Shown here piece by piece: positions 1 through 7,844 of a stretch of DNA of 7,844 bases. The stretch's first letter is position 1, and every line of letters begins with the position of its first letter. The position numbers and the translations under genes are program-made. The notes under the pieces are model-generated. The model made no database searches and was not told the origin of the DNA. It worked only from the letters and a program-made list of their open reading frames with translations. Origin of the DNA: a candidate division TA06 bacterium SM23_40 (GTDB lineage Bacteria; LJUI01; SM1-40); assembly GCA_001303705.1 (NCBI GenBank), contig LJUI01000133.1, positions 1 through 7,844 on the forward strand, written 5' to 3'.

Positions 1-810
1 GGATCGTACGGTGGCGGCGGGATCGCTTGCTGGTGGCTTTCGTTCCCGATCATCGACCTCAACACGATCGTGGGCAACACCTCTCTGTCTGATCCGGGTG
101 GGGGAGTCTACTGCCACCAGTCCTCTCCGACCCTGGACATCAATACGTTCTCAGGCAACGTTGCTCCTTACGGCGGAGCGATCGGTTGCGACTATTACGC
201 TTCTCCGGCGGTGACGAACTGCATCCTCTGGGCGGATAGCGCAGGCACATTCCAGGAGATCTATCTGGGCCTCTTCGCGACAGTCACCGTCGACTATTCG
301 GACGTCCAGGGCGGCTGGTCGGGGACAGGCAACATCAACGCCGACCCGAAGTTCGTCCTCCCCGGTCAGGGGGACTACCGTCTGCTCTGGGGTTCGCCCT
401 GTATCGATGCCGGCGATCCTACCTGGCCCAATGATCCGGACGGCACGCGCTGCGATATGGGAGCGCACCCGTTCGACCAGAGCCGGCAGCTCACGCTGTA
501 CCTCACGCCCCATGCTTCCCACGTTACGCCCGGCGGGCAGCTCGGGGTGACCTACACCGTCATCAATCGGCAGGCGCAGCCCGTGCCGTTTACGGTATCG
601 AGCGATGCGGTCCTGCCGAACGGGAATACGGTGAACGTTCTGGGGCCGAGCAACTACACCCTCCCTGCGAATTTCACGGCGCAGCGGACCTTCACCCATA
701 ACGTGCCAGCTGTCGCACCTGTTGGGGACTATCTGTATCGGTCTCAGATCACGCCGCAGGGCAGCCCGAACCCTTACGATCAGGATCAGTTTGCATTCCT
801 GAGTCCATAG
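1..810 (+). CDS. Secreted right-handed beta-helix repeat protein, C-terminal part (5' end outside window)
   Basis: The frame is open from base 1 to a TAG at 808-810, giving 269 visible residues. The gene starts upstream of the window, so an ATG at 70 is internal. Seen: about three glycine/asparagine-rich rungs of the type GGGI-C-SPIIDLNTIVGN (residues 1-75), the segment NINADPKF (about 113-120), the closing segment SPCIDAGDP..DGTRCDMGAH (about 134-156), then a roughly 100-residue beta-rich domain beginning LTLYLTPHASHVTPGG and ending FAFLSP. By family knowledge, such rungs form a right-handed parallel beta-helix (pectin-lyase-like fold), usually on exported proteins that bind surfaces or carbohydrates. 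The C-terminal half closely matches the next gene and is less like the third. No type IX or LPXTG sorting tail is visible. No catalytic residues can be assigned; an adhesin or surface role is inference. Confidence 0.88.
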   Translation, partial: GSYGGGGIACWWLSFPIIDLNTIVGNTSLSDPGGGVYCHQSSPTLDINTFSGNVAPYGGAIGCDYYASPAVTNCILWADSAGTFQEIYLGLFATVTVDYSDVQGGWSGTGNINADPKFVLPGQGDYRLLWGSPCIDAGDPTWPNDPDGTRCDMGAHPFDQSRQLTLYLTPHASHVTPGGQLGVTYTVINRQAQPVPFTVSSDAVLPNGNTVNVLGPSNYTLPANFTAQRTFTHNVPAVAPVGDYLYRSQITPQGSPNPYDQDQFAFLSP

Positions 811-811
811 C

Positions 812-857
812 GGCGCAGTATCCACGATGTGGCCGTGGTCGGAGCTGTGTCGTTCGA
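812..857 (+). repeat. Intergenic repeat, copy 1 of 2 (46 nt)
   Basis: This stretch directly after the first beta-helix gene is identical over 46 nt to 2517-2562 after the second gene. It begins GGCGCAGTATCCACGATGTG. No copy follows the third gene. It marks the duplicated unit as gene plus downstream leader. The flanking coding ends differ at several positions, so the block is at least as conserved as coding DNA. Confidence 0.9.
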
Positions 858-895
858 CTGCGAGACCTCGACCACCTCGAGTAGAGGTTCTTCCA

Positions 896-933
896 CCGGG
901 CCTCTCCGTGGAGGCCGGCAACCAGAAGGAGGG
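896..933 (+). promoter_or_regulatory. Leader stem-loop followed by Shine-Dalgarno of the second beta-helix gene
   Basis: The arms GGCCTC (899-904) and GAGGCC (911-916) pair around loop TCCGTG. Two further C-G pairs (896-897 with 917-918) form if G898 is bulged. The SD AAGGAGGG follows at 926-933, four bases before ATG 938. The same order of stem-loop, SD and 4-nt spacer occurs before the third gene, which favours 938 over ATG 935, whose spacer is only one base. Confidence 0.6.
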
Positions 934-937
934 TATG

Positions 938-2515
938 ATGAAGACGGTGGCAACTCTCGTGTGCGGAGCCGCAGTCCTTTTGCTGTGTGCGAGCGCGTGG
1001 CCGGCAGTGTTGAACGTGCCCGGCCAGTATCCGACAATCCAGGCCGGGATCGATGCCGCGGCGATCGGGGACACGGTGCTCGTCGCTCCCGGCACCTACA
1101 CCGGGAACGGGAACCGTGACCTTCACTTTTCGAGCTCCCTCCCCGCCAAGGATATTACGGTCATGTCCTCGGGCGGGCCCTGGGTGACGATAATCGATTG
1201 TCAGGGGTCCAGCTCGAGTCCCCACCGGGGGTTCATCTTCCAGTGTTGCGAATCCTCGAACTCGGTCGTACAAGGGTTCACCATCCAGAACGGGTGGACC
1301 ACCGAGGGCGGAGCCATCAGCTGCCTGAGCTCATCTCCGACGATCACCGGGAACGTAATTCGGGCGAATACCGGCCAGGATTTCGGAGGCGGGATCTGGT
1401 TCAGCCAGTATTCACATCCGACCATCACGAACAACTTCATTCTGGAGAATCAGTCCGATGCGGGCGGCGGGATCTGCTGTTATCTGTATTGCATCCCCAC
1501 CATCACCGGCAACCTGATCGAAGGGAATACCGCAGCCGGGATGGGTGGTGGAATCCAGGTGTACGACGGGGGACCCTGGCACGGTCCGCTCGTGACTGGC
1601 AACACGATCAGAGGCAATTCGAGCGGCGCCGGCGCCGGCGGCATCGGCTGCTCGAACTCCTTCGCGACCATCATCGGCAACAGGATCGAGGGGAATGTCG
1701 TGCAGTCCGGTTCTGGCGGCGGGATCTTCTGCGGGTTGTCGTCTCCGATCATTGATCTCAACACGTTCGTGGGCAACAACTCAGGATCGTATCCGGGCGG
1801 CGGTGTCTACTGCTACTGGCAGGCTTCTCCGACCATGGACATCAACACGTTCTCAGGCAACTCCGCCTCCTACGGCGGCGCTGTCGGCTGTGACATGCAG
1901 TCTCATCCCTCGGTGACGAACTGCATCCTCTGGGCTGATGTGGCCGGTGCGCCGCAGGAGATCTACGTGGGTCCCATCGGCTGCAGCATCACCGTCGACT
2001 ACTCAGACGTTCAGGGTGGCTGGCCGGGCACGGGGAATATCAACGCCGACCCGAAGTTCGCGCTGCCGGGCCAGGGGGAGTACCGTCTCCTCTGGGGTTC
2101 GCCCTGCATCGACGTCGGCGACCCCACGTGGCCGAGTGATCCGGATGGCACGCGCTGCGACATGGGAGCGCATCCCTTCGACCAGAGTCGGCAGCTCACA
2201 CTCTATCTTACGCCCCATGCGTCCCATGTCTCGCCCGGCGGGCAGCTCGGGGTGACCTACACCGCGATCAACCGGCAGCCGCAGCCTGTTCCGTTCACGG
2301 TGTCGAGCGATGTTGTCCTGCCGAACGGGAATGCGGTGAACGTAGTGGGGCCGAGCACCTATACGCTCCCTGCAAACTTCACGGCCCAGCGGCTCTTCAC
2401 TCACAACGTGCCGTCTTCTGCACCGGTCGGGAACTACCTGTACCGGTCCAAGGTCGCGCCGCCGGGGAGCCCTAACCCCTATGATCAGGACCAGTTCGCA
2501 TTCCTGAGTCCGTAG
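938..2515 (+). CDS. Secreted right-handed beta-helix repeat protein (525 aa), second array member
   Basis: The start is ATG 938, four bases after AAGGAGGG and aligned with MKTVATLVC of the next paralog. The frame is open back to ATG 827, but that codon has no SD and would bury the signal peptide. Residues 1-23 form a type I signal peptide (MKTVATLVCGAAVLLLCASA then WPA). Residues 24-57 (VPGQYPTIQAGIDAA...GDTVLVAPGTYTG) are the usual opening of secreted beta-helix proteins. About eight rungs of the form SPTITGN.I.GN...GGGI lie at about 125-345. The closing segment SPCIDVGDP..DGTRCDMGAH is at 388-412, and a beta-rich domain spans about 419-525. The mature protein has about 15 cysteines, including two CC pairs, many at equivalent rung positions. 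The likely location is the periplasm or cell surface. No enzymatic motif is recognisable, so binding or adhesion is inference. Confidence 0.93.
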   Translation: MKTVATLVCGAAVLLLCASAWPAVLNVPGQYPTIQAGIDAAAIGDTVLVAPGTYTGNGNRDLHFSSSLPAKDITVMSSGGPWVTIIDCQGSSSSPHRGFIFQCCESSNSVVQGFTIQNGWTTEGGAISCLSSSPTITGNVIRANTGQDFGGGIWFSQYSHPTITNNFILENQSDAGGGICCYLYCIPTITGNLIEGNTAAGMGGGIQVYDGGPWHGPLVTGNTIRGNSSGAGAGGIGCSNSFATIIGNRIEGNVVQSGSGGGIFCGLSSPIIDLNTFVGNNSGSYPGGGVYCYWQASPTMDINTFSGNSASYGGAVGCDMQSHPSVTNCILWADVAGAPQEIYVGPIGCSITVDYSDVQGGWPGTGNINADPKFALPGQGEYRLLWGSPCIDVGDPTWPSDPDGTRCDMGAHPFDQSRQLTLYLTPHASHVSPGGQLGVTYTAINRQPQPVPFTVSSDVVLPNGNAVNVVGPSTYTLPANFTAQRLFTHNVPSSAPVGNYLYRSKVAPPGSPNPYDQDQFAFLSP

Positions 2516-2516
2516 T

Positions 2517-2562
2517 GGCGCAGTATCCACGATGTGGCCGTGGTCGGAGCTGTGTCGTTCGA
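2517..2562 (+). repeat. Intergenic repeat, copy 2 of 2 (46 nt)
   Basis: Identical over 46 nt to 812-857 and placed at the same distance after the stop codon of the preceding paralog. Beyond it the two leaders diverge, with substitutions and a net 3-nt length difference, until they converge again at the SD. Confidence 0.9.
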
Positions 2563-2600
2563 ACGCAAGACCTCGGCCACATCGAGTAGAGACTCATCCA

Positions 2601-2641
2601 CCGGCTTCTCTTCCGAGAGGGACCGGCAACGAGAAGGAGGG
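2601..2641 (+). promoter_or_regulatory. Leader stem-loop followed by Shine-Dalgarno of the third beta-helix gene
   Basis: Arm 2601-2611 (CCGGCTTCTCT) pairs with 2616-2626 (AGAGGGACCGG) around the tetraloop TCCG, with one mismatch and two G-U pairs. The SD AAGGAGGG follows at 2634-2641, four bases before ATG 2646. The stem occupies the same place as the one before gene two although its bases differ. Confidence 0.55.
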
Positions 2642-2645
2642 TGTC

Positions 2646-4199
2646 ATGAAGACGGTCGCAACTCTTGTCTGCGCAGCCGCAGTCCTTTCCCTGTGTGCGA
2701 GCGCGTGGCCGGCTATTCTCTACGTGCCGAGCCAGTATTCGACGATCCAGGGCGCGATCAATGCGTGCTCAGTCGGCGACACGGTAATGGTAGCCCCTGG
2801 CACCTACACCGGCAGCGGGAACCGTGACCTCGACTTCGGCGGTAAGGATATCTGCGTGATGTCGTCGAACGGTCCGTGGGTGACGGTTATCGATTCTCAG
2901 GGGAGCAGCTCGAATCCCCACCGGGGGTTCATCTTCCAGAACAGCGAGACCCCGAGCGCGACAGTGCAGGGATTCACGATCCAGAACGGATGGGCGGGCG
3001 ATGGCGGCGCTGTCTCCTGCCAGAACTCCTCCCCGACGATTACGGGGAACGTGATGCAGGGGAATACTGCCCAGTACATCGGTGGCGGCATCTCCTTCCT
3101 CGGGGGTTCCTCTCCGGTCATCACCGGCAACTTCATCCTTGCGAATGGAGCGAATGCCGGTGGGGGGATCTACGGCCAGGATCCGAGTACTCCCACCGTC
3201 AGCGGCAACCTGATCGAGGCGAACGCGGCTGCCCAGGATGGGAGCGGGATCGCCTTCGGTCCACTGTGCGGGGGAACCATCAGCGGCAACACGATCAGGG
3301 GGAATGCCGGTGGTGGCATGGGCGGTGGGATCGCCTGCTATGCGTCCTTTCCCAGCATAGTGGGGAACAAGATCGACCTGAACTCAGGACCCATGGGCGG
3401 CGGCGGGATCGCGTGCTGGTACTTCTCGTCTCCGACGATCGACTCCAACACCATCGTGGGGAACGTAGCCGGGTCGAACCCGGGCGGAGGGATCTGGTGC
3501 TGGCAGTGGTCCTCTCCGACCATGGACCGGAATACGTTCAGCGGGAATTTCGCCGGCAACGGGGGCGCCATCGGGTGTGATATGGGGTGTACGCCCACGG
3601 TCAGGAACTCCATCCTGTGGGCGAATGTCTCCACCACGAACCCGGAGATCTACGTCGGTCCCAACAGCTCTACCATCACCGTCGACTACACCGATGTCCA
3701 GGGTGGTTGGCCCGGGACAGGCAACATCAACGCCGACCCGAAATTCCTGTTGCCTCCCCAGCTCGACTTTCGCCTCCTCTGGCCCTCGCCCTGCATCGAT
3801 GCTGGCGATCCGACACCATCGCTCAACGATCCAGATGGCACACGTCGCGATATGGGAGCCCACTACTTCGACCAGGGCCCGACCCTTACGCTCTATCTCA
3901 CACCCTCCAGTTCCCATGTCACACCCGGCGGTCAGCTTCGGGTTAGATACACGGTCATCAACAGAAACGCCGGGCCAGTGACGTTCTCGGTGGTGAGCAA
4001 TGTTGTCCTGCCGAACGGAAACACACTGAATGTCCTGGGGCCGAGCTCATATACGATTCCCGGCAATGTGACGGTGCAGCGGACGCTCACCCATAACGCC
4101 CCGGCCGCCGCACCGGTCGGCCACTACCAGTATCAGTCGAGCATCACCGGAATCCTGAACCCGCCGCCGATGCAGGTGTTCGGATTCCTCGTGCCGTAG
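2646..4199 (+). CDS. Secreted right-handed beta-helix repeat protein (517 aa), third array member
   Basis: The start is ATG 2646, four bases after AAGGAGGG; an in-frame ATG at 2532 has no SD and is rejected. Residues 1-23 form a signal peptide (MKTVATLVCAAAVLSLCASA then WPA). The opening segment VPSQYSTIQGAIN...APGTYTG is at 27-56. About eight rungs lie at 127-338, clearest at SSPTIDSNTIVGN (261-273) and SSPTMDRNTFSGN (289-301). INADPKF is at 361-367, the closing segment SPCIDAGDP...DGTRRDMGAH at 381-406, and the C-terminal beta-rich domain at about 412-517, ending FGFLVP. It is clearly paralogous to the two upstream genes but the most diverged, with about 10 cysteines in the mature protein against about 15 in the second. 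It is the last array member: no repeat leader follows its stop. A surface binding role is inference; no catalytic site is identified. Confidence 0.93.
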   Translation: MKTVATLVCAAAVLSLCASAWPAILYVPSQYSTIQGAINACSVGDTVMVAPGTYTGSGNRDLDFGGKDICVMSSNGPWVTVIDSQGSSSNPHRGFIFQNSETPSATVQGFTIQNGWAGDGGAVSCQNSSPTITGNVMQGNTAQYIGGGISFLGGSSPVITGNFILANGANAGGGIYGQDPSTPTVSGNLIEANAAAQDGSGIAFGPLCGGTISGNTIRGNAGGGMGGGIACYASFPSIVGNKIDLNSGPMGGGGIACWYFSSPTIDSNTIVGNVAGSNPGGGIWCWQWSSPTMDRNTFSGNFAGNGGAIGCDMGCTPTVRNSILWANVSTTNPEIYVGPNSSTITVDYTDVQGGWPGTGNINADPKFLLPPQLDFRLLWPSPCIDAGDPTPSLNDPDGTRRDMGAHYFDQGPTLTLYLTPSSSHVTPGGQLRVRYTVINRNAGPVTFSVVSNVVLPNGNTLNVLGPSSYTIPGNVTVQRTLTHNAPAAAPVGHYQYQSSITGILNPPPMQVFGFLVP

Positions 4200-4584
4200 G
4201 CTGATGGGCTTGGGCATCGAATGGAGGGAATTCCCGACGGGAGGGGGCTGGTCTCGGTGCCCCAGATGTAGCCAGGCCAGATGTGCTCGAGAGGAAGCAT
4301 CACAAACGCGCAGCGCGCCTCTATGTGAGGCGCGCTGCGCTCGTGCCGGGCCGTGCTCCACGGCGTACGGCTGATGTCGCCGGGGATTCTGGCTCCGTCA
4401 AAAGCCGTGTCCGGGCCGAGGTGAACGTCGGCGGGGTACAGCCTCGGCCGAGGGAGTGTTGCCGTCGAGCGTGATACCCCAGGCAGGGATCATCGATACC
4501 GCCCGGTGCGTGCCGGAGAAGTACTACTTGTCGTGATCCAGTTTTGGGATCGGCGATCCTTGCCTGCTGAGCGAGAGCGGTATG
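4200..4584. other. Non-coding or unassigned stretch downstream of the beta-helix array
   Basis: I see no ORF with convincing composition or start signals on either strand here. It contains the 14-bp hairpin at 4308-4340 and a short palindrome CCTCGGCCGAGG at 4442-4453. Short frames on both strands lack an SD and any recognisable motif. If the minus-strand transcript proposed from the promoter at 5191-5205 exists, this is its 3' end. Confidence 0.5.
4308..4340 (-). terminator. Strong hairpin, probable terminator at the convergent junction
   Basis: The arms GCGCAGCGCGCCTC (4308-4321) and GAGGCGCGCTGCGC (4327-4340) are perfectly complementary over 14 bp around a 5-nt loop. Read on the minus strand, the stem is followed by GTTTGTGATG, a weak T-rich tract. 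Read on the plus strand it is followed by TCGTGCCGGG, with no T tract. It therefore fits better as a minus-strand terminator, though it could also stop transcription from the third beta-helix gene, whose stop is 108 nt away. Confidence 0.5.
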
Positions 4585-4651
4585 TGGGTGGGGCCTCGGG
4601 CCAGACCGCCTTGTGCCGCTAATACCTCATAGCGCCGAGGCCCTCCACCCA
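4585..4651. other. Large branched inverted repeat, possible structured RNA element
   Basis: TGGGTGG (4585-4591) pairs with CCACCCA (4645-4651), and GGCCTCGG (4592-4599) pairs with CCGAGGCC (4635-4642). This makes 15 bp interrupted only by a 2-nt bulge. Inside, CGCTA (4617-4621) pairs with TAGCG (4630-4634), directly abutting the outer stem. I do not recognise it as a known riboswitch or transposon end. Confidence 0.4.
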
Positions 4652-4881
4652 ATGGGGCAACACAGACTGTCGTCCCTCTCAACCTCGTGAGGACACGGCT
4701 CAAGAGAGCCGGTCACCCGCGACTTTCCGCGATGTATCCTCGGCCCCCGACCGTACAGGGCTGTGCTCCCAACCACCGGATAGGGAACTACTGGAGCAGA
4801 AGGAGCGGGTTCGCCCGGTCGATCGTACGGGCTGAAGATCACATCCGCGGTTCCCGCGCGGAGGTCTGGCCTGATCGCCAT
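4627..4881 (-). CDS. Possible small protein (84 aa), unrecognised
   Basis: This is a minus-strand ORF with ATG 4881 and TGA at 4629-4627. A textbook SD GGAGGT lies five bases before the ATG. The protein begins MAIRPDLRAGTADVIFSPYD and has no motif, signal peptide or membrane segment that I recognise. Third-position GC is only slightly raised, so coding is unproven. It lies downstream of the candidate sigma-54 promoter and 24 nt after another small ORF, as in a short operon. The SD is base-paired in a hairpin with the ATG in its loop, which would imply translational control if the gene is real. The alternative is a chance frame in a structured non-coding RNA. Confidence 0.2.
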   Translation of the reverse strand: MAIRPDLRAGTADVIFSPYDRPGEPAPSAPVVPYPVVGSTALYGRGPRIHRGKSRVTGSLEPCPHEVERDDSLCCPIGWRASAL

Positions 4882-4893
4882 TCAGGACCTCCG
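4859..4893 (-). promoter_or_regulatory. Hairpin sequestering an SD and start codon
   Basis: On the minus strand CGGAGGTC (4893-4886) pairs perfectly with GACCTCCG (4866-4859). An inner CTGA/TCAG stem (4885-4882 with 4874-4871) closes a 7-nt loop that starts with ATG 4881. The SD GGAGGT is inside the outer stem. This geometry resembles translation-blocking hairpins such as RNA thermometers; function depends on the 84-codon ORF being real. Confidence 0.35.
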
Positions 4894-4905
4894 GGGGAGT
4901 CTGTC

Positions 4906-5130
4906 CTAACAGCTCAGGAGCCCGGTCGGCAGACAGCAGTACGAGGGCGTGCCCAGACAGACCCTCGTCCTTTTCGCGTGCGGCGTAGGCATCGGAATGG
5001 TTGATCCCCCTCCCTGATGGGGAATGTGTGCCGATCCATGTTCTATCGGTGCATGAGCTGCCCAGATCCGATAGTGGGCGCGGGTGACTCCCGCGTGTGT
5101 CCCTGGGAGAGCTATTGACTGACCCATCAT
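4906..5130 (-). CDS. Possible small protein (74 aa), unrecognised
   Basis: The minus-strand ORF runs from ATG 5130 to TAG at 4908-4906. The SD AGAAGGAGGG (5145-5136) ends five bases before the ATG; 13 nt around it are identical to the SD region of the second beta-helix gene. A GTG at 5136 in the same frame overlaps the SD and is unlikely to be the start. The sequence begins MMGQSIALPGTHAGVTRAHY and includes several His and Cys residues; I see no known domain, signal peptide or membrane helix. Its main support is context: the ATG lies about 50 nt downstream of the start predicted for the sigma-54 promoter. Codon composition does not clearly separate it from non-coding DNA. Confidence 0.25.
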   Translation of the reverse strand: MMGQSIALPGTHAGVTRAHYRIWAAHAPIEHGSAHIPHQGGGSTIPMPTPHAKRTRVCLGTPSYCCLPTGLLSC

Positions 5131-5190
5131 GTTCACCCTCCTTCTGGATCGAGCGTGGCCTGTACTGGCCTTTGCTCATGTGCTTCTTAC

Positions 5191-5205
5191 TGCAAGAACC
5201 GTGCC
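5191..5205 (-). promoter_or_regulatory. Sigma-54 (-24/-12) promoter
   Basis: Read on the minus strand the sequence is GGCACG GTTC TTGCA, matching the sigma-54 consensus TGGCACG-N4-TTGCA at every defined base except the first (G for T). The spacing between the GG and GC dinucleotides is exactly 10 nt. Transcription would start near 5179-5181 and run towards lower coordinates. The gene just upstream encodes a sigma-54 activator, and a strong SD with ATG lies about 50 nt downstream. I found no other site in the window that matches both boxes. Confidence 0.7.
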
Positions 5206-5282
5206 CACTCAGGGTGGATTCATCCAAGTGCTTGGGGTACAGGGTATTCCGGCAATAGTCCTGCGTGGCCATGCCGCCCGCC

Positions 5283-5314
5283 AAACGAAAGAAGAGGCCA
5301 AATATGGCCTCTTC
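5283..5314 (-). terminator. Intrinsic terminator of the sigma-54 activator operon, overlapping a palindromic motif
   Basis: The arms GAAGAGGCCA (5291-5300) and TGGCCTCTTC (5305-5314) are perfectly complementary over 10 bp around a 4-nt loop. On the minus strand the stem is followed by TTTCGTTT, a T-rich tract typical of factor-independent termination. It lies about 85 nt after the activator stop codon and would separate the operon from the downstream sigma-54 promoter. Confidence 0.65.
5296..5309. promoter_or_regulatory. Candidate activator-binding palindrome, proximal copy
   Basis: GGCCAAATATGGCC forms GGCCA/TGGCC half-sites around AATA. Its centre is about 122 bp upstream of the start predicted for the promoter at 5191-5205, a usual distance for a sigma-54 enhancer site. 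It is shared with the terminator stem. Its role as a binding site is inference. Confidence 0.4.
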
Positions 5315-5364
5315 AGGCACATGGATTGAGCTAACCTATTGAAGCACTGTGACGCCCGGGCCGC

Positions 5365-5378
5365 GGTCAAATATGGCC
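5365..5378. promoter_or_regulatory. Candidate activator-binding palindrome, distal copy
   Basis: GGTCAAATATGGCC matches the proximal copy at 13 of 14 bases. It is centred 69 bp further upstream (about -191 from the predicted start) and 20 bp beyond the activator stop codon. There is no T-rich tract next to it, so a terminator role does not explain its conservation. A paired enhancer site is the inference. Confidence 0.4.
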
Positions 5379-5397
5379 GGTGCGGAGGAAAACGGTG

Positions 5398-6939
5398 CTA
5401 TGACCCCAGGTCCAGCTTCTTCATCTTGCCTCTCAGGGTGGAGCGAGGGATGCCCATGATACGGGCCGCCTCAGCTTTGTTGCCACCCACCCGGGAAAGG
5501 ACGCGACGGATGTACTCCCTCTCCAGCTCCTCATAGGAGAGTGGCCGACCCTGCTGGTCCGTGAAAACATTGGCCGGGGTGACCACCGGGACGGGTGTCC
5601 GCAGTTTCTCCGACAGGTCCTTGAGGGTGATCCTGCTCCCTTTCCTGGCGAAGATGACTGCCCGTTCGATCTCATTCTCCAGTTCCCGGACGTTGTTTTC
5701 CGTCCAGTCGTAATTCTTCAGAGCCTCCAGCGCTCGTGCGTCGAACCCGCGCAGCTCCTTTCCCTTCTCTCTGCTGTACTTGTCCAGGAAATGCTGTGCC
5801 AGAAGCGAGATATCTTCCCGTCGGTCTCTCAACGGAGGCACATCGATCGTTACCACGTTTATTCGGTAGTAGAAATCCTGGCGGAACCGGCCCTCCTGGA
5901 TTGCATATCGCAAATCCTCATTTGTTGCGCAGACGAGGCGGACATCTACCTTAGTCGTCTTTGTGCCCCCAACTCTCCGGATCTCGTTCTCCTGGAGGAC
6001 CCTGAGGAGCTTGATCTGCATGGGATGACTTGTATGGTGTATCTCATCTAGAAACAGAGTCCCGCCCCCGGCTGCCTGGAATAGCCCCTGTTTGTCTATG
6101 GCGCCGGTGAACGCGCCCCTGACGCTGCCGAAGAGCTCGGCCTCCAGGAGCGTCTCGGGCAGGGCGCCACAATTGAGAGCCAGGAAGGGGCCGCTCTTTC
6201 GCTTTCCGTTGTAGTGAATCGCTTTGGCGATCACTTCCTTCCCGCTCCCGGACTCTCCTGTGATGAGTACCGTGGAATCATCGTCCAGGATCTGGGTGAC
6301 GCTCTGGAAGACCTTCTGCATCGCCTTGCTCTGGCCGATGACGCCGGGAACGTCGTACCGCTTCCCGACCTCTTCGCGAAGGGTGATGTTCTCTGTCAGC
6401 AGTCTATCCATCAGGTTCGCGTTGCTGATGGCGATTGCGGCCAGGTTGGCGAAAGCTTCCAGAAACGCAGCGTCTTCTCGCGTGAAGGTCTTCACGTATA
6501 TTCGTTGATCAATATAGAGAGTGCCCAGAGGGTCAGGTCGTCCCGGTACGATGAGCGGTACACAGACGAAAGAGAGGATATGCAGGCCTCGCACACTCTC
6601 GGCGTTTCTGAATCGTGCGTCCGACTGGAGATCAGCACTCATGATAGTCTTTTTATCCTTGAGTGCCGTCTGAACGATGCTCGTGCTAAAGGCGATATCT
6701 TCCTCCTCCAGGGTCTCCGAGGCGACAGTGCGATAGGTTTCGCCGGACTCGTCTGTCAGAATGATCATTCCCCTCTCTGCACCCAGTCTGGCGATGGCGG
6801 AGTGGAGCACCTCGTCGAGCAGCGTCTGTACGTCTTTGATCTGATTGATCCTCTGGCTGAAGGAGAAGAGGGTCATCAATCGATCCTGAGACAGGGGGTA
6901 TTCCTCGTCTCCCTGGACCTGATCAGCGTCGACGCTCAT
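5398..6939 (-). CDS. GAF-domain sigma-54-dependent transcriptional activator (bEBP), 513 aa
   Basis: The order is GAF sensor, AAA+ ATPase, Fis-type DNA-binding HTH. Residues about 30-175 look like a GAF domain ([11 protein letters not shown] ends it). Walker A GESGSGKE is at 228-235, the sigma-54-contacting loop GAFTGA at 275-280, Walker [11 protein letters not shown] at 291-300, a sensor I-like ATNEDL at 338-343, arginine-finger region [11 protein letters not shown] at 351-361, and a sensor II region NNVRELEN at 415-422. The [23 protein letters not shown] is at 487-506. All catalytic motifs are intact, so it should hydrolyse ATP and remodel sigma-54 RNA polymerase. There is no response-regulator receiver domain, so control is probably through GAF ligand binding or the partner TPR protein. 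The start is ATG 6939, with AAAAGGAGG (6959-6951) 11 nt upstream. The TPR gene stop ends only 20 nt before it, indicating one operon. Its target is probably the promoter at 5191-5205. Confidence 0.95.
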
Positions 6940-6959: not shown

Positions 6960-7844
6960 CTATGTATGCTTGGCCATTCTTAGATCGTCGTGCAATTCGA
7001 CGATCTCTCTTTTGCCAAGGTAGAATTGTCTCAGTCCTTCCTCGAGATTCGATGTGATCGACTCGACTATCTGTGCAGCAGCATCCAGGTGCTCACGTGC
7101 GGGTACGTGTTGTGCTCTCCTGAGGAGGACTCTGGCGACACAAAAGTGTGCCCGCCACAGAAGCTCTCTCATCCCGCGGGGCTCGGCGATTTCCAGGACC
7201 AGAAGCTCTCTCATCCCGCGGGGCTCGGCGATTTCCAGGACCTGGCCGGCATGAGATTCCGCCTCGTCCAGATCGCCCTGCGCAAGGCGGATTCGGGCGA
7301 GAATAAGGTGGGCGCGGGCGATATACTGCGGCTTCCCCAGGTCTGCTGCGAGGCCGAGCAGTTCCTCGGCGTACTTAGTGGCCTGGGGATCACGATTCTG
7401 GGTGGTCTCTATCTGTGCCGCAAGGCTAAGGGCCTCTGATATCGATTCAACGATTCCAAGCTCCCGGAGAATCCGCAATCCCTCTTCTACATCGACGCGC
7501 GCCTCTTCGTCGTCCCGTCTGAAGTGCTTGACCAGTGCCGCATCGATGAGTGACGCGGCGCGCATCGATCTTGTCCCGACTATCTGGGCAGTCCGTGTAG
7601 CCTCCTCAAGCGCCTCCAGCGCCCGGTCCTGGTCGCCGATCTCCAACCAGACTCTGGCCAGACAGTGTTGTGCATCCCACTCTCCGGCCTTGTCGCCGAT
7701 CTGCTTGTGAATAGCCAGGGCCTCCTCCTGGTGGCCGAGAGCAGCCCGATAGTCTGCGCGGCATGTATGGATCGCTGCAATGCAGCACAGCGCATCGGCC
7801 TCGCCAAGTCTGTTCCCGATCTCCCGCTCGATCTTGAGTGACAG
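6960..7844 (-). CDS. Tetratricopeptide-repeat protein, C-terminal part (5' end outside window)
   Basis: The frame is open from the window edge (7844) to a TAG at 6962-6960, giving 294 visible residues. The N-terminus lies outside, and a TTG at 7646 is internal. Several helical TPR units are visible, for example EEALAIHKQIGDKAGEWDAQ (about 40-59), DQDRALEALEEAT (about 71-83) and LILARIRLAQGDLDEAESHA, with the expected small and aromatic residues. By family knowledge TPRs are protein-interaction scaffolds. Large proteins joining a Ser/Thr kinase or AAA domain to TPRs, GAF and a sigma-54 AAA+ module are known, so this may be the sensory half of such a system encoded separately; the missing N-terminus would decide. 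An exact 14-residue duplication (visible residues 202-229) breaks the repeat spacing. The stop lies 20 nt before the activator ATG, so the two are co-transcribed. Confidence 0.9.
   Translation of the reverse strand: MSLKIEREIGNRLGEADALCCIAAIHTCRADYRAALGHQEEALAIHKQIGDKAGEWDAQHCLARVWLEIGDQDRALEALEEATRTAQIVGTRSMRAASLIDAALVKHFRRDDEEARVDVEEGLRILRELGIVESISEALSLAAQIETTQNRDPQATKYAEELLGLAADLGKPQYIARAHLILARIRLAQGDLDEAESHAGQVLEIAEPRGMRELLVLEIAEPRGMRELLWRAHFCVARVLLRRAQHVPAREHLDAAAQIVESITSNLEEGLRQFYLGKREIVELHDDLRMAKHT
7159..7242. repeat. Exact 42-bp tandem duplication inside the TPR gene
   Basis: Copies at 7159-7200 and 7201-7242 are identical and directly adjacent. Being 42 bp long, the duplication keeps the frame and repeats the 14 residues VLEIAEPRGMRELL. 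The absence of any difference between copies suggests a recent slippage event or an assembly error. Confidence 0.95.

Follow-up and report, generated by a model that had tools for sequence, protein, structure and literature searches.

In Pseudomonas and Azotobacter, the gene for the activator CbrB is followed by crcZ, which specifies a separate sigma-54-dependent non-coding RNA and is directly activated by CbrB via several upstream subsites (PMC8871633). In Desulfovibrio vulgaris, the mapped target of DVU0679 is a small RNA, Dv_sRNA2, encoded just downstream of the activator gene, and that of DVU0653, likewise just downstream, proved to be a missing gene annotation (PMC3333781; PMC4641369). 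More broadly, sigma-54 activators and promoters are found close to genes concerned with the exterior of the bacterial cell (PMC3162934). The locus considered here lies in a stretch of 7,844 nucleotides (the window), which constitutes an entire contig (C96) of a 2.88 Mb genome in 189 contigs. Our best reading of it is a well-formed, dedicated, and locally controlled sigma-54 promoter, which follows an activator gene on the same strand and is predicted to serve an unannotated RNA or a small or decayed gene.

The Activator, Its Upstream Neighbor, and the Promoter

Three elements, all encoded on the minus strand, form the upstream part of the locus:
6960–7844, minus strand: TPR protein, encoded immediately ahead of the activator and truncated at its 5' end by the contig boundary
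5398–6939, minus strand: GAF - sigma-54 AAA+ - HTH_8 (Fis) activator, 513 aa, with the Shine-Dalgarno sequence AAAGGAGGG before its ATG
5206–5191, minus strand: sigma-54 -24/-12 promoter element GGGCACGGTTCTTGCA, predicted start at about 5180

The activator is intact, with Walker A, the GAFTGA loop, Walker B, and the DNA-binding HTH_8 all present, and the genome encodes RpoN, the DNA-binding domain of which was found with an E value of 7e-58. A paralogue on contig C4 combines Ser/Thr kinase, AAA, TPR, GAF, sigma-54 activator, and HTH modules in one 1835-aa protein, a fusion which suggests that the activator of the window may be signaled to via the TPR (possibly kinase) protein encoded next to it. 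The fusion paralogue itself precedes a sigma-54 site, and the region around it (L080, contig C4:7000-19500) carries three such sites within about 4 kb after the fusion protein. The TPR gene of the window contains, at 7158–7242, an exact 42-bp in-frame tandem duplication by which 14 residues are repeated, and which is either a recent event or an assembly artefact.

The promoter element differs from the consensus TGGCACGNNNNTTGCW by a single mismatch, the first base of the -24 element being G in place of T, while the GG and GC dinucleotides and the exact spacing within the consensus are preserved at 5206–5191. The original prediction had named the minus-strand core GGCACG-GTTC-TTGCA at 5205–5191, which is present as claimed with both dinucleotides and the spacing intact, and had placed the end of the activator about 200 bp upstream, in agreement with the stop at 5398, 191 bp away. 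Its chance figure of 0.004 holds for the exact 11-base core under uniform composition, but a 16-mer with at most one mismatch gives about 0.05 per 7.8 kb. When the reversed pattern, again with at most one mismatch allowed, was used as the chance background over the whole genome, it produced 20 matches, against 41 for the genuine 16-mer, 10 of them perfect. Taken alone, the promoter sequence is thus suggestive, good but short of conclusive, and the strength of the site derives from its position after the activator gene.

Activator-then-Promoter Layout Across the Genome

The genome contains 18 full-strength sigma-54 activators, and the layout was counted for the 17 complete ones (gene end present) by scanning both strands from the stop. 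In nine of these 17, the present one included, a site with at most one mismatch lies 145–443 bp past the stop on the same strand, against about 0.05 expected from the genome-wide density of sites; the opposite strand after the 17 stops holds no such site, and the reversed pattern has no match within 450 bp past the stops. Therefore, an activator followed by a sigma-54 promoter is a standing layout in this genome. Among distant homologues of the activator in other genomes, a site just downstream was seen in only two of about 20 loci with a recognized activator.

At the other eight activator-adjacent sites, a gene-like ORF begins within about 160 nt; among the products are a prepilin, a lipoprotein, a secreted protein of beta-helix-like type, and response regulators. 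The present locus is unusual in that its promoter faces DNA unlike a normal protein gene.

The Interval Between Activator and Promoter

The interval between the two carries the following features:
5365–5378, no strand assigned: candidate upstream activating sequence, distal copy GGTCAAATATGGCC, centered at -191
5296–5309, no strand assigned: candidate upstream activating sequence, proximal copy GGCCAAATATGGCC, centered at -122, within the hairpin 5291–5314
5291–5314, minus strand: perfect 10-bp hairpin with a T-rich tail, a possible activator terminator and/or enhancer dyad

The 191 bp that separate the activator stop from the promoter contain two copies of GGYCAAATATGGCC, 69 bp apart, and these are its sole exact occurrences in the 2.88 Mb genome. 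Repeated dyads, as sought at about -80 to -200 for an enhancer, are represented by two copies, at -122 and -191. A palindromic pair of near-identical 14-mers appeared in 1 of 3000 dinucleotide shuffles of the interval, a figure to be read as post hoc, the motif having been noticed before the test. Its uniqueness in the genome makes the duplicated dyad a good candidate for the binding sites of the activator, and we infer that the adjacent activator would bind both copies. The regions before the other eight activator-adjacent promoters show no common dyad motif, only scattered repeats.

A terminator had also been predicted between activator and promoter. The hairpin at 5314–5291 is indeed there, but one dyad copy lies inside it, and binding of the activator is probably at least part of its role. 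The distal copy (5365–5378) forms no stable hairpin, and a protein-binding site accounts better than a terminator by itself for a core that two copies share but that folds into a hairpin in only one, both roles being possible.

The Downstream Region and Its Product

Beyond the promoter, the minus strand carries:
4308–5180, minus strand: predicted transcript of about 870 nt, from the sigma-54 start to a terminator-like hairpin, with no coding frame by score
5137–5145, minus strand: Shine-Dalgarno sequence AGAAGGAGG before the ATG at 5130
4906–5130, minus strand: 74-aa ORF after this Shine-Dalgarno sequence and ATG, with a negative coding score and no family
4308–4340, minus strand: terminator-like hairpin, a 14-bp stem followed by GTTTGTG, perhaps shared with the convergent beta-helix genes

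Every frame between about 5180 and the hairpin at 4340–4308 fails the coding test. The Shine-Dalgarno sequence and ATG that were expected about 50 nt past the predicted start (~5180) are in place, at 5145–5137 and 5130, in an AAGGAGG-ATG arrangement found in 0.55% of shuffles of the region, and so strong a pair is a hint of translation. The 74-aa ORF that they introduce has a coding score of -6.8, whereas genuine genes of this size should score about +11. Pfam offers no family for the downstream region or the ORF, the genome holds no paralogue of the latter, and homologue searches with the 159-aa and 74-aa ORFs gave marginal matches only. DNA similar to the downstream region was found neither in its own genome nor in the 290 genomes searched, and an Rfam search of 4200–5400 gave no match up to E = 1. 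We do not claim a large structured RNA, for which the first folds gave a z of -4.4 over 876 nt, local structure being ordinary when compared with other intergenic windows from this genome. Over the 870-nt region, structure exceeds that of shuffles only modestly (z about -2.8), its 300-nt windows resemble other intergenic DNA of the genome, and much of the excess near 4300–4340 is due to the terminator hairpin.

The promoter may serve a non-coding RNA, a small protein of atypical kind, or what is left of the beginning of a lost gene; in view of the coding score and of the precedents known, we rank the RNA highest. Most likely, the product would be either a regulatory RNA comparable in type to CrcZ or Dv_sRNA2 or a transcript with a short ORF, rather than a conventional protein gene. 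Of the original prediction of a dedicated switch for a missed gene or RNA, the first part, a sigma-54 promoter under the control of a neighboring activator, is supported by the recurrence of the layout, rpoN, GAFTGA, and the unique duplicated dyad at enhancer distance; the part concerning the product is less certain, the 74-aa ORF scoring as non-coding and both DNA and ORF being without a homologue. More specifically, the product might be a regulatory RNA peculiar to this lineage, about 870 nt long, unlike any Rfam family and switched on by the TPR/GAF-linked sigma-54 activator via a private enhancer pair, a reading that we put forward as tentative and rather doubtful; if true, the RNA would exceed typical bacterial small RNAs in length.

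Several neighboring and distant features are recorded here in their own right. Three head-to-tail paralogous beta-helix surface-type genes occupy 1–4199 of the window; the beta-helix protein has 146 matches in the genome, and some genes of the family lie under sigma-54 sites. The idea that contig C169 supplies the upstream portion missing from the beta-helix operon was rejected, as the contig ends do not overlap. Elsewhere in the genome, a perfect sigma-54 site on the minus strand (L010, contig C61:4401-4416) has a long G+C-rich hairpin with a T run about 15 nt beyond it. It faces a convergent gene from the 3' side, the first residues of that gene being protein-kinase-like, and it is a candidate for a very short sigma-54-dependent small RNA. 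Another perfect site, on the plus strand (L014, contig C109:17874-17889), is followed by about 830 nt in which no ORF looks coding.

Proposed Mechanism and Alternative Explanations

We favor, with a probability of about 0.6, a local dedicated sigma-54 switch that leads from the activator (6939–5398) through the dyads to the promoter and an RNA from about 5180. The GAF activator would probably receive a signal from the TPR, possibly kinase-linked, protein encoded upstream, and would bind both copies of the GGYCAAATATGGCC dyad in the intergenic stretch that follows its own gene; dyad-bound, it would loop to Esigma54 at 5206–5191, hydrolyze ATP, and open the promoter, and the resulting RNA would extend on the minus strand from near 5180 as far as the hairpin at 4340–4308, a length of at most about 870 nt. 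The model starts from what the DNA contains, namely an intact activator, RpoN, a promoter sequence placed non-randomly behind that activator, and a duplicated dyad unique in the genome, and extends from there to activator binding, transcription, and a product, each of which would follow as set out above.

Alternatively, the promoter may drive the 74-aa protein from the ATG at 5130, or may once have driven a gene, for example for a beta-helix surface protein, the coding part of which was lost or broken while the promoter and ribosome-binding site were left. The rarity by chance of so well-placed an AAGGAGG and ATG (0.55% of shuffles) speaks for this, as do the Shine-Dalgarno sequence CCAGAAGGAGGGT, which is the same as that before a beta-helix gene in the window (922–934), and the sigma-54 sites that precede beta-helix family genes on contigs C42 and C169; the score of the ORF (-6.8 against about +11), which has neither a Pfam match nor a paralogue in the genome, and the lack of similarity between the region and beta-helix DNA nevertheless make it unlikely, if still worth keeping in view. 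A chance match, in which the promoter is non-functional and the hairpin 5314–5291 is simply the terminator of the activator, seems to us improbable: over the whole genome, chance would account for about half of the sites that have no more than one mismatch (20/41), several sites in the genome fall within coding genes, and no gene follows this one, but sites after 9 of 17 activators against 0.05 expected, on the same strand each time, and a duplicated dyad unique to the interval, with a second copy that forms no stable hairpin, argue against it.

The RNA might also read through into the convergent beta-helix operon (minus strand below 4199) or interact with it as an antisense RNA. For 4.2 kb beyond the promoter, its strand carries nothing else, and the convergent genes encode surface-type proteins, sigma-54 control of the cell exterior being a recognized theme (PMC3162934); a strong terminator-like hairpin stands 108 bp before the end of the operon, however, and we regard such a role as very improbable. 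Under the favored reading of a local dedicated switch, the significance of the locus lies partly in the genome around it, where about half of the activators precede their own sigma-54 promoter and regulator-target pairs can be read from gene order, in a lineage without close sequenced relatives. For one of these pairs, the target would escape standard annotation, and its candidate enhancer motif is testable.

Comparison with Known Systems

As in the case of cbrB and crcZ, the promoter lies downstream of the activator gene on the same strand and as a separate unit, the separation here resting on a predicted hairpin only. CbrB, however, is a response regulator paired with the kinase CbrA, whereas the present activator carries a GAF domain and lies beside a TPR protein gene, and CrcZ sequesters Hfq/Crc, whereas the region here is devoid of A-rich motifs of that type; with no Rfam match up to E = 1 and no such motifs, we reject the downstream RNA as a CrcZ-like Hfq/Crc decoy. 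In keeping with the theme of sigma-54 control of the cell surface, other activator-adjacent sites in this genome precede prepilin, lipoprotein, response-regulator, and beta-helix-like genes, but at this locus no surface gene follows the promoter. The locus resembles those of DVU0679 and DVU0653 in combining a sigma-54-type activator with a candidate unannotated or RNA target just downstream, although these activators are of the response-regulator type and from another organism, and the expression of Dv_sRNA2 was confirmed by tiling array, whereas the transcript of the present locus is predicted from sequence. The arrangement of an activator with a sigma-54-dependent small RNA is thus already known, and the locus is probably best read as a further example of it, from a distant lineage and with a different kind of activator.
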